Shown: piece by piece, positions 14,684 to 18,011 of the stretch
How positions within the stretch are numbered: the first letter of the stretch is position 1
How the letters are laid out: every line of letters starts with the position of its first letter
Assembly: GCA_027313705.1 (NCBI GenBank)
Contig: DAHVDE010000051.1
Coordinates: 1 to 63,147 of the forward strand
Reading direction: 5' to 3'
Length of the DNA stretch: 63,147 bases
Source: Actinomycetota bacterium
Lineage (GTDB): Bacteria; Actinomycetota; Actinomycetes; Streptosporangiales; Streptosporangiaceae
Position numbers and translations under genes: made by a program
Notes under the pieces: generated by a model
Databases searched by the model: none
What the model was told of the DNA's origin: nothing
Seen by the model: only the letters and a program-made list of their open reading frames with translations

Positions 14684-15598
14684 TTACCTGGACGCGCGGG
14701 CCGAGGCGTAGAGGCAGACGGCCGCGGCCGCGGCCAGGTTGAGGCTCTCCGCCCGGCCGTAAATTGGCACGGCGACGACCTCGTCCGCGAGTGCACGCGA
14801 CTGCGCGGGCAGTCCCCATGCCTCGTTTCCGAACAGCCACGCCGTCGGCCTGGCTAGCCTGCCCGCCGCCTGAAGTTCGTCCAGGGTCAGGTCCGCGCCG
14901 CCGTCAGCCGCCAGCACGGTCAGTCCGGCACCGCGCAGCGCGCTGGCGGCATCCGCCGCGCTTACCCCGGTTACGACCGGCAAGTGGAACAGGGATCCGG
15001 CCGACGATCGCACGCACTTGCCGTTGTATGGGTCCACGGAGTCGCCGGCGAAGATCACTCCCCCGGCACCGGCCGCGTCCGCGGTACGCAGCACGGTCCC
15101 TGCGTTGCCAGGATCACGCACGTCCGCGAGCACGACCAGGAGCCGGGGACTGGCTGCGGCAAGTTCACCCAGCGGCACGTCAAGGAACGAGCACACCGCC
15201 AGCAGTCCTTGCGGGGTCACCGTAGGCGCCAATTCGGCCATCAGCTCAGCGCTGACCTCAAGCACCGCAACCCCGGCGCCGGCGGCGGCGTCCACCAGTT
15301 CGCCGTGCCTGGCCAGGGCCGCCGCCGTCACGAAAAGCTCAGTGACGGCGCACGGCGACCCGGCAAGCACGGACCGGCCGGACGAGCCAGCCTGGCCAGG
15401 GCAGCCAAGCGCTTCCCTGACCGCCTGCGGTCCTTCGGCGAGAAACAGCCTCGCCTCCTCGCGCTTGGCACGCCTGGCAAGCTGCCTGGCCAGCTTGACC
15501 CGAGGCGAGTGAACCCCTGGCTGCCGCCTAGCCTCAGGCAGCCTGCGGCCTCGGCGCGTCGACGTCGTCGGGCAGCGCCGCGCGCGCGACCACGACAA
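14684..15598 (-). CDS. TrmH/SpoU-family RNA 2'-O-methyltransferase
   Basis: SAM-dependent RNA ribose methyltransferase of the SPOUT class. The substrate-binding N-terminal domain ends near [14 protein letters not shown]. Catalytic motif 1 is [20 protein letters not shown], motif 2 is [11 protein letters not shown] and motif 3 is [16 protein letters not shown]. The RNA target (likely a 23S position) cannot be read from sequence. The start is unclear: homologous sequence begins around codon 15514 ([15 protein letters not shown]), but no ATG, GTG or TTG lies there. The nearest usual starts are TTG at 15598 and 15631, inside rplT, and a CTG at 15541 would give the expected length. It follows rplT, consistent with ribosome maturation. 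Confidence 0.87.
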
Positions 15599-15923
15599 GC
15601 GCAGCGAACGCCTCGGAATCGGCGACGGCAAGCTCGGCGAGCATGCGCCGGTCCACGTCGACGCCAGCTATCTTCAAGCCCTGGATAAACCGGTTATACG
15701 TCATGCCTTCTGCCCTGACAGCAGCATTAATCCGCTGAATCCACAGCCGACGGAACGCGCCCTTACGGTCCTTGCGGTCCCGGTAGGCATACGTCATCGA
15801 GTGCAGTTGCTGTTCCTTGGCCTTCCGGTACAACCTCGACCGCTGGCCGCGGTAACCGCTCGACCGCTCGAGTACTACCCTGCGCTTCTTGTGGGCATTG
15901 ACCGCCCGCTTCACGCGTGCCAT
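15534..15923 (-). CDS. rplT: Ribosomal protein L20
   Basis: Large-subunit assembly protein. The 129-aa sequence has the L20 core [30 protein letters not shown] and [18 protein letters not shown], then a C-terminal extension (about residues 110-129, acidic then PRPQAA) beyond the usual end. It is the last gene of infC-rpmI-rplT. In Firmicutes and proteobacteria L20 represses this operon by binding its leader or the rpmI region; whether that occurs here is not known from the sequence. Confidence 0.98.
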
Positions 15924-15949
15924 TTTGGCTCCCTACACGTCGGACCGGG

Positions 15950-16144
15950 TTACTTGCCCAGCAGCTTCTTGGCGATCTTCAGGTCGGCGGGCGAGACTTC
16001 CACGTCGCCTGCCAGGCGGCGGGTCCGCGTGCTCGGCTTGTGCTCAAAGTAGTGCCCCCGGTTGGCCCGGCGGCGCATGATCTTGCCGCTGCCCGTGATG
16101 CGCAATCTCTTCTTCGCACCACTGTGCGTCTTCATCTTCGGCAT
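15950..16144 (-). CDS. rpmI: Ribosomal protein L35
   Basis: A 64-aa ribosomal protein beginning [13 protein letters not shown], with the family pattern [25 protein letters not shown]. The frame is open to 16180, but ATG 16144 is the family start. It lies 26 bp before rplT and about 130 bp after infC, in the standard order. Confidence 0.97.
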
Positions 16145-16277
16145 GTCGCCGTATCCCTCGTTCCATGCGTGCTCACGCACACGTTCTCTACTTACAGCCG
16201 TTACTTACGGCTGTTATTTACACCGTCTTCACTGACCCGGCGGCGCCGTTTTCCTCTGCTAACAGCCGGTGCGCCCG

Positions 16278-17543
16278 TCAGCCTCCGGACTGCGTCGTCG
16301 AGCCGCCATTCTCCGGCCTCGGCCGCGGCGTCGGCACGGCAGTGCCCTCGCCTGGCTTGGCGGCCGTAACCCTCGGCGCGGTCGGCTTGGGTGCCGCCGG
16401 GCGCGGCGCGCCGCTCGGCACAGGTCCTGGCCTAGGTGCCGTCGGCCGCGGCGGAGCCGGTCTCGGCCCGCTGGGCGAAGGGCCAGGCCGCGGTGCGGCC
16501 GGCCGCGGTGCGCCTTCCGATCCCTGTCCTGGCCGCTGGGCGCCTGAAGCTCGCTCGGCCGCAGCCGGCCTTGGGGTCGGGCGCGGGCCAGAACCAGAAG
16601 TCGCGAAGCTAGGTCCAGCCGACCCAGGCGAACCCGCGCCAGTGGCGGAACCAAGCCCGGTGCCGGCCCCTGGCCTGACCGAACTCGAACCCGGGCGCGG
16701 TGCGGCCTGGCGAGGCCCTTGACCGCCGGCCGGCGCAGGCGCACTTGAGCGCGGCGCCGCCTGGAAGGCACGGCTAGTCCTGCTGGCCGGGCCGGCCGTC
16801 GTAGCCTGGGCCAGTCGCTCCGTCGCGACGGCCGCTTCCTGCGGTGCCTGCTCCTGCGGTGCCTGCTCCTGCGGTTCCTGCTCCTGCGGCAGGTAAGCCT
16901 GCAGTTGCGATGCCTGCTCCTGAAGCGAGCCTAGGTCGAACTGCATTTCGCCGCCTTCGTCGCGGTTCGCTCCTGGCGCCGAGGCGCGGGCGCTTGCCCG
17001 GTCAGGAGTCTTGACCGGCTTGACGTCCGCCTTCTTGCGGTGCGGTCCGATGACCATGATCATGTTCCGGCCGTCTTGCTTTGGCTGCGACTCGACGAAA
17101 CCAAGTTCCTCAACGTCACCGGCTAGCCGCTGGAGCAGCTTGTAGCCAAGTTCTGGCCTGCTCTGCTCGCGGCCTCGGAACATGATGGTGATCTTGACCT
17201 TGTCGCCCTGCTTCAGGAACCGCTCGACGTGACCCTTCTTGGTCCCGTAGTCGTGCGGATCGATCTTGGGGCGGATCTTGATCTCCTTGATGACGGTCTG
17301 GGCCTGGTTCTTGCGCGATTCCCTGGCCTTGAGCGCCGACTCGTACTTGAACTTGCCGTAGTCCATGAGCTTGCAGACCGGCGGCCGCGCGGTCGGCGCG
17401 ACCTCGACTAGGTCAAGATCGGCTTCCTGGGCGAGGCGGAGCGCGTCATTGATGGACACGATCCCGACCTGCTCGCCAGACGGGCCGACCAGCCGGACTT
17501 CAGGTACCCGGATTCGCTCGTTGATGCGAGGTTCAGTGCTGAT
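16278..17543 (-). CDS. infC: Translation initiation factor IF-3 with long disordered tail, probable ATC start
   Basis: IF-3 binds the 30S subunit and controls start-codon choice. The core, about 175 residues, includes [45 protein letters not shown] and [19 protein letters not shown], both IF-3 domains and the linker. The start chosen is ATC at 17543 because a perfect AGGAGG (17553-17548) lies four bases upstream and homology begins exactly there; GTG at 17606 would add 21 unrelated residues. Non-standard starts are known for infC and serve IF-3 autoregulation. After the core come about 245 residues rich in Pro, Ala, Gly, Arg and Gln, with QEQAP repeats. Such tails occur in some actinobacterial IF-3 proteins, but this one is long (421 aa in total). 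Confidence 0.93.
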
Positions 17544-17553
17544 GTGACCTCCT
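17541..17553 (-). promoter_or_regulatory. infC Shine-Dalgarno and ATC initiation codon
   Basis: AGGAGG (17553-17548 on the minus strand), then TCAC, then ATC (17543-17541) in the IF-3 frame. A full consensus ribosome-binding site in front of a non-standard codon is the arrangement expected for an IF-3-discriminated start. Confidence 0.75.
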
Positions 17554-17620
17554 GAGCCACTGTCATCCTGCCACGGGCCTATCCCAGAGCAGGTACTGCG
17601 AGCCACCTACGCGGAACGCC

Positions 17621-17651
17621 AAAAAGCCCCGCAAGGTATGCGTGCGGGGCT
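17621..17651 (-). terminator. Attenuator-like terminator hairpin in the infC leader
   Basis: On the minus strand AGCCCCGCA (17651-17643) pairs with TGCGGGGCT (17633-17625) around a 9-nt loop, and five T residues follow (17625-17621). This is an intrinsic terminator about 80 nt upstream of the infC start. Its position suggests transcription attenuation of infC-rpmI-rplT; it could instead simply end readthrough from aroE. Confidence 0.75.
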
Positions 17652-18011
17652 CCACCTGTGCAACCTCGGCGGCTCAACCGGAACGCCAACGGGAACAGTT
17701 CCCGCTAGGCCGACCAATGCCACTCCAGCCACCGACGCTCCGCGAGCCGACTCGCGCTGCGCGCAAGCGAGCCGCCGTACGTCCGGCCGAGACCAGCCGA
17801 TCCGGAGACCGGCTAGCCTGCCAGCCAGCCCTGCGTGAACTCCCTCTGGGCTGCTGGACTGCTACCCGCCGACATCGGCCCGCGCTTGCCAAGCGCCAGC
17901 CGCAGTCAGCTAGGTGGGAGGTGGCCAAGGTGGTCCTCCGCTTTCCCCAGGGCAATTCTGCCGCGGGGCATTAAGTTCTGCCTCTCACATTACCGCATCG
18001 CCGCGGCCTAG
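17652..18011. other. 360-bp gene-free stretch upstream of infC
   Basis: No credible gene is seen. It should hold the infC promoter and leader for the minus strand. It contains near-palindromes CGGGAACAGTTCCCG (17690-17704) and GCGCTTGCCAAGCGC (17882-17896), which could fold in the leader RNA. I could not pick a convincing -10/-35 pair. Confidence 0.5.

Follow-up and report, generated by a model that had tools for sequence, protein, structure and literature searches.

A probable ATC start codon for infC and a conserved RNA element in infC leaders, seen from a Streptosporangiaceae genome

In the 63,147-nucleotide stretch of actinomycetotal DNA analysed here (the window), translation initiation factor IF-3 is encoded by infC on the minus strand, and its translation very probably starts at the ATC codon 17543-17541. 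This start is strongly supported by comparison with other genomes of the class. The comparison bore out the start position and its Shine-Dalgarno (SD) sequence, revealed that many relatives lack a canonical alternative, and uncovered a conserved, covarying leader RNA with, in most loci, a terminator-like hairpin. We have high confidence in an overall explanation in which the SD would guide initiation to the ATC, IF-3 would feed back on its own synthesis, and the leader would probably add attenuation by ribosomal protein L20. An ATC start of infC is already in print for Streptomyces (PMC5472188) and is therefore not a discovery; the one described here is real, was correctly read and is ordinary in kind. 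The window adds a member from a family other than that of Streptomyces, together with a class-wide count.

The infC start in the window and its class

The features discussed below are the following:

16278..17543, minus strand: infC (IF-3), 421 aa counted from the ATC, by NCBIfam profile match
17541..17543, minus strand: ATC, predicted start codon of infC, from position 1 of TIGR00168 and class comparison
17548..17553, minus strand: Shine-Dalgarno sequence AGGAGG, 4 nt 5' of the ATC (4-nt spacer in 102 of 116 class loci)
17604..17606, minus strand: upstream GTG candidate, rejected (no SD, 14 nt past the hairpin T-run)
15950..16204, minus strand: rpmI (L35), second gene, stop-to-stop frame, from ORF list and profile
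15534..15932, minus strand: rplT (L20), third gene, stop-to-stop frame, from ORF list and profile
17621..17651, minus strand: terminator-like hairpin AGCCCCGCA...TGCGGGGCT with T-run, by a simple hairpin rule
17864..17943, minus strand: leader core AAG-P1-CACC-P2-GGGT, L20-leader-like, from models R1 and R2 and covariation

The genes follow each other in the order infC, rpmI, rplT on the minus strand, and the L35 protein begins at MPKMKT inside its frame. The infC stop-to-stop frame (17606-16278) opens with GTG 17606-17604 right behind a TAG, and no further in-frame ATG, GTG or TTG lies between this codon and the ATC. NCBIfam TIGR00168 (infC) matched the frame with 223 bits against a cut-off of 60, residue 24 of the frame standing at profile position 3, so that profile position 1 falls on residue 22, the ATC. 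The initial annotation had claimed that homology to IF-3 opens exactly at this codon, that a perfect AGGAGG precedes it by 4 nt, and that GTG 17606 is the only upstream GTG and lacks a good ribosome site. All three statements were borne out, with AGGAGG at 17553-17548, the spacer TCAC at 17547-17544 and no SD before the GTG. The codons after the ATC read AGC ACT GAA CCT CGC ATC AAC. The pattern AGGAGG-N4-AT[ACT] had a single occurrence on both strands of the window, at infC, and SD matches of at least 5 bases preceded 16 of its 43 long ORFs, at spacings of 2-13 nt (4 nt in two). The 16S 3' end GGATCACCTCCTTTCT was present in three relatives; this exact pattern did not turn up in the assembly of the window itself. 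One infC copy was found in the window's genome, that of the window. Residues 1-171 of the protein correspond to the query core and are followed by a C-terminal tail of about 250 residues rich in Pro, Ala, Gly and Arg (16278-17030). Stop-to-stop infC frames among 39 matches ranged from 193 to 556 aa.

The initial annotation had proposed an alignment of infC 5' ends across related genomes as a check. Our sample consisted of 110 loci (30 + 80) from relatives and named genomes plus 20 same-class loci, with the start position anchored by tblastn; removing 14 of these 130 class loci with identical 120 bases around the start left 116 distinct ones. The aligned start was ATC in 115 and ATT in one (L121), where the script output had given ATC 114 and ATT 2 and the tie L105 was assigned by hand to the ATC standing at the usual place. 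All 116 starts had an SD match of 5 bases or more in front of them, separated from the codon by 4 bases in 102, so the conserved ATC-plus-AGGAGG arrangement looked for in this check was found. In 35 loci there was no in-frame ATG, GTG or TTG upstream at all. Some such codon was present in the other 81, preceded by an SD-like match of at least 5 bases in 18 of the 116; the commonest single distance was 24 nt (17/116), and the distance of the window's GTG, 63 nt, occurred in seven loci including the window. The neighbouring genes of the same loci started normally where they lay within the fetched flank: rpmI with ATG in 98 of 99, the single exception being aligned at a CTG immediately before the ATG, and rplT with ATG, GTG or TTG in 105 of 105. 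Per-base conservation, taken over 106 distinct 75-base stretches, was at most 0.41 bits at -30 to -15, peaked at the SD and was high from the ATC onward, which is the pattern expected of a start codon and unlike that of an internal isoleucine. Conservation of the third base of the codon says little in this respect, because 568 of the 675 isoleucine codons in the window's long ORFs are ATC. Taken with the regular starts of rpmI and rplT and the loci devoid of an in-frame canonical codon, these counts support ATC as the predicted infC start.

Could translation instead begin at GTG 17606, with the ATC as an internal isoleucine behind a 21-residue N-terminal extension? This codon is the sole canonical one in frame upstream of the ATC, and the window shares its distance with the few loci counted above, but no SD stands before it, it lies 14 nt past the T-run of the leader hairpin, and the bases upstream of the ATC are poorly conserved. 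A start at this distance was found in none of four genus relatives: a stop was reached 51 and 57 nt upstream in L004 and L006, with no start codon between, and L002 and L003 have a GTG at -105 and an ATG at -39, respectively. The third of the class without any in-frame canonical codon upstream (35/116) likewise speaks against it. The comparison was able to reveal an extension, because some other families do show GTG or TTG near -51 with alike upstream residues. We therefore rejected GTG 17606 on the missing SD, its absence from the genus relatives and the poor upstream conservation, and regard it as very improbable, although a minor longer form of IF-3 may exist besides the ATC-started one. 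Still less credence, practically none, is given to a start further downstream, at GTG 17459-17457 (codon 29) or at the first in-frame ATG (codon 60). Canonical codons do stand at these places, but starting there would cost the protein the first part of its N-terminal domain, where conservation is good from the ATC onward, and both were rejected on this ground.

infC starts in other classes of the phylum

Outside the class, 35 of 71 infC loci had no in-frame ATG, GTG or TTG, and the best SD-preceded non-canonical codon was mostly ATC, ATA, ATT, GTA or GTC, with a few others or none. From these alignments infC outside the class seems to start at ATA, ATT, GTA or GTC. In family f29, GTA stood at the conserved start place in 18 of 18 loci (L150-L153, L213-L226; all 18 genomes of this family in the sample), 16 of which had no in-frame canonical codon. 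Family f26 had GTC in seven and GTA in two of nine loci (L141-L144, L208-L212), all nine without an in-frame canonical codon and eight with an out-of-frame ATG behind the SD.

A different arrangement was found in nine loci of families f32, f45, f53, f57 and f68 (L157, L158, L177, L178, L186, L187, L192, L193, L201), which have GTG or TTG 48-60 bases upstream. An SD of 5 preceded this codon in two of the nine, and the upstream residues PRRFDRRPP were common to L177, L178, L186 and L187. The position of these codons and the residues shared by four loci make a canonical start with an N-terminal IF-3 extension likely in these families, which thus speak against a universal non-canonical start of infC.

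The infC leader

The stretch separating the aroE frame upstream from the infC ATC contains the window hairpin (17651-17625, T-run to 17621). The same simple rule, applied to at most 150 bases upstream of infC, was satisfied in 91 of 116 class loci, against one on the opposite strand, none inside infC and four when each locus was plainly shuffled once. Of the loci outside the class, 40 of 69 satisfied it, a count that omits two short loci, against four on the opposite strand and none inside infC. For its composition the window's own hairpin has no exceptional stability (z -1.35; 26 of 200 shuffles did equally well), and a promoter/terminator scan of the infC leader with a loop limit of 8 listed neither a promoter nor a terminator.

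Further upstream, infC leaders of the class carry a conserved, covarying RNA element. A model built from 51 leaders (R1) matched the window core with 30.4 bits (E 3.3e-4), the only match in the genome at E <=0.1. The second model, R2, gave 37 bits, with the window copy (L001) being among its training rows. The 51 rows of alignment A2 were picked by a regular expression, so that its invariant columns are circular. Among 79 class loci outside the R1 training set, 75 were searched and all 75 had an R1 match upstream of infC and on its strand (weakest E 0.066); 14 of 71 loci of other classes had one (E up to 1). In searches of whole genomes the best R1 match lay at infC in 31 of 38 infC-bearing genomes, including that of the window. 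Five of the remaining seven had only a weak R1 match elsewhere (E 0.03-0.08), and the other two had none under stricter filters. R2 found a match at infC in two of these seven (G022, G031); in G164 and G130 it gave no match with E up to 1, and in G050 weak ones only, away from infC.

Covariation was assessed on 69 aligned leader matches (alignment A3), which were fitted to the R1 structure, a procedure that favours the result. In this alignment 97.1% of cells could pair vs 87.2 when shuffled, 11 of 15 pairs changed on both sides somewhere vs 4.9, and the covariation score was 0.293, against 0.119 after shuffling and no more than 0.051 after sliding. Its rows also contain a match that is probably false (L064 2655-2694) and a leader belonging to an additional, inverted infC copy (L004 504-579). 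In the latter locus (G001:C264) two inverted infC copies lie about 110 bp apart near the contig end, perhaps an assembly artefact. We also compared leaders with 23S rRNA for possible mimicry: three leader snippets had runs of 8-11 bases in common with a single locus carrying rRNA (L205), and two of three 23S genes contained AAGTGG in what is presumably their H40-H41 area, regarded as the L20 site.

No Rfam family matched anywhere in the window at gathering score, the L20_leader model RF00558 did not match the window leader up to E 5, and it matched in none of the 30 class loci searched. In other classes, where 60 of the 71 loci were searched, 19 had an RF00558 match 5' of infC at E <=1. Only one of these, L136 743-855 on the minus strand (65.6 bits), exceeded the threshold of 58.7, followed by L164 (56.1), L137 (45.1), L171 (42.9) and L156 (42.3 bits) and weaker others. 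R1 or R2 matched in 11 of the 19 loci and overlapped RF00558 in all 11, the AAG sitting 6 nt inside the RF00558 start in nine and 12 nt in two. Five of these 11 had been detected with R1, R2 matches were weak in some cases (E up to 0.49), and four are among the R2 training rows, yet had earlier been found by R1. Loci of other classes thus have the AAG-P1-CACC-P2-GGU core upstream of infC aligned in register with RF00558. Sub-threshold matches to the cspA thermoregulator were also seen upstream of infC in other classes (L140 1046-1120, minus strand; L148 333-518, plus strand).

Another Rfam family, Scr1601 (RF02830), reached its gathering score of 100 in two of the 30 class loci, L033 (888-1113, 162.8 bits) and L064 (164.2 bits), with eight more below threshold. 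Both are Streptomyces loci, and the match occupies the same place in the infC leader; in L033 its end coincides with the hairpin, some 90 nt ahead of the infC ATC. Scr1601 differs from the window leader in being filed as a small RNA gene, and it had no match there. Published work lists Scr1601 among the small RNAs of S. coelicolor and reports that its S. ambofaciens homologue was encountered in UTRs (PMC8388888). Since the window matches neither RF00558 nor Scr1601, we did not file its leader in RF00558; by analogy it nevertheless probably works like an L20 leader.

Published precedents and a model of infC control

According to the passages on infC in Feeney et al. (2017), this gene starts with ATT in E. 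coli and ATC in Streptomyces, IF-3 autoregulates its own translation through that start codon, and the start is misannotated in most Streptomyces species (PMC5472188); in those passages the Streptomyces ATC is stated rather than experimentally demonstrated. Other reports describe ATT as the B. subtilis start (PMC6097659), ribosomes arrested by retapamulin at the AUA with which S. aureus infC starts (PMC13009471) and, in vitro, a drop in full-length product for mismatched pairs, AUU/CAU among them, as IF-3 increases (PMC10158994). Our literature searches, mostly without full text, brought up no other mention of an ATC start of infC, nor of an L20 leader in actinobacteria.

The nearest likeness is with Streptomyces infC, where ATC stands at the same alignment position within AGGAGG-N4-ATC (e.g. 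L033), although the spacer letters differ and the window belongs to another family (Streptosporangiaceae). E. coli likewise has a non-canonical codon that limits IF-3 synthesis (PMC5472188), but there it is ATT instead of ATC, and infC is described as not being under L20 control (PMC10931766), whereas the window has an L20-leader-like element upstream. With B. subtilis infC-rpmI-rplT the window has in common the gene order and the non-canonical infC start (PMC6097659, PMC10931766), and with its L20 leader the succession AAG-P1-CACC-P2-GGU plus terminator (PMC6097659, PMC10931766, RF00558 consensus). It differs in lacking an RF00558 match, and its response to L20 is putative. The L20 RNA was described as narrowly distributed to Firmicutes by Babina et al. 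(2018; PMC6097659).

On this basis ribosomes would initiate IF-3 at ATC 17543-17541, guided by the AGGAGG, with the initiator fMet-tRNA decoding the ATC via a third-base mismatch. Because IF-3 disfavours mismatched starts, its level would feed back on its own translation, high IF-3 lowering and low IF-3 raising it. A further feedback would probably come from the leader with its terminator-like hairpin, upstream of the start in the same mRNA: L20, encoded by the third gene, would attenuate transcription as in Bacillus subtilis. Initiation at the ATC in the cell, repression by IF-3, co-transcription and L20 binding are what we infer from these comparisons.

It is also conceivable that the ATC start is real and the weak codon only sets a low constant level of IF-3, with no feedback. 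A rare start does cut yield by itself, to about 10% of that of AUG for three S. aureus reporters in poor medium, as one report gives it (PMC13009471), and feedback in the window organism is argued by analogy with E. coli, having been stated for Streptomyces. However, infC retains the non-canonical codon while its neighbours rpmI and rplT in these loci do not carry one, and in Streptomyces extra infC is reported to lower SigR, which is made from GTC (PMC5472188). We consider a constant level without feedback unlikely, and keep to feedback by IF-3 as the preferred reading.

A wider proposal, to which we give slightly better than even credence, concerns the infC-rpmI-rplT operon of Actinomycetota as a whole. 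It would combine two feedbacks on a single mRNA: a divergent L20 leader attenuating transcription, of which Scr1601 would be the terminated form, and an IF-3-limited start that is non-canonical in most families. The codon itself would have drifted among ATC, ATT, ATA, GTA and GTC, with GTA or GTC fixed in whole families, and the conserved property would be rejection by IF-3.

Specialist attention is best directed to the leader and to the GTA/GTC starts. For the window organism the ATC likely fixes the N-terminus of IF-3, in a class where Feeney et al. describe the Streptomyces infC start as mostly misannotated (PMC5472188), and the classic IF-3 feedback would be extended beyond model species. 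If the leader is responsive to L20, it would carry the L20 attenuator from Firmicutes into Actinomycetota, and a small RNA of Streptomyces would turn out to be the stub left by an attenuated operon.
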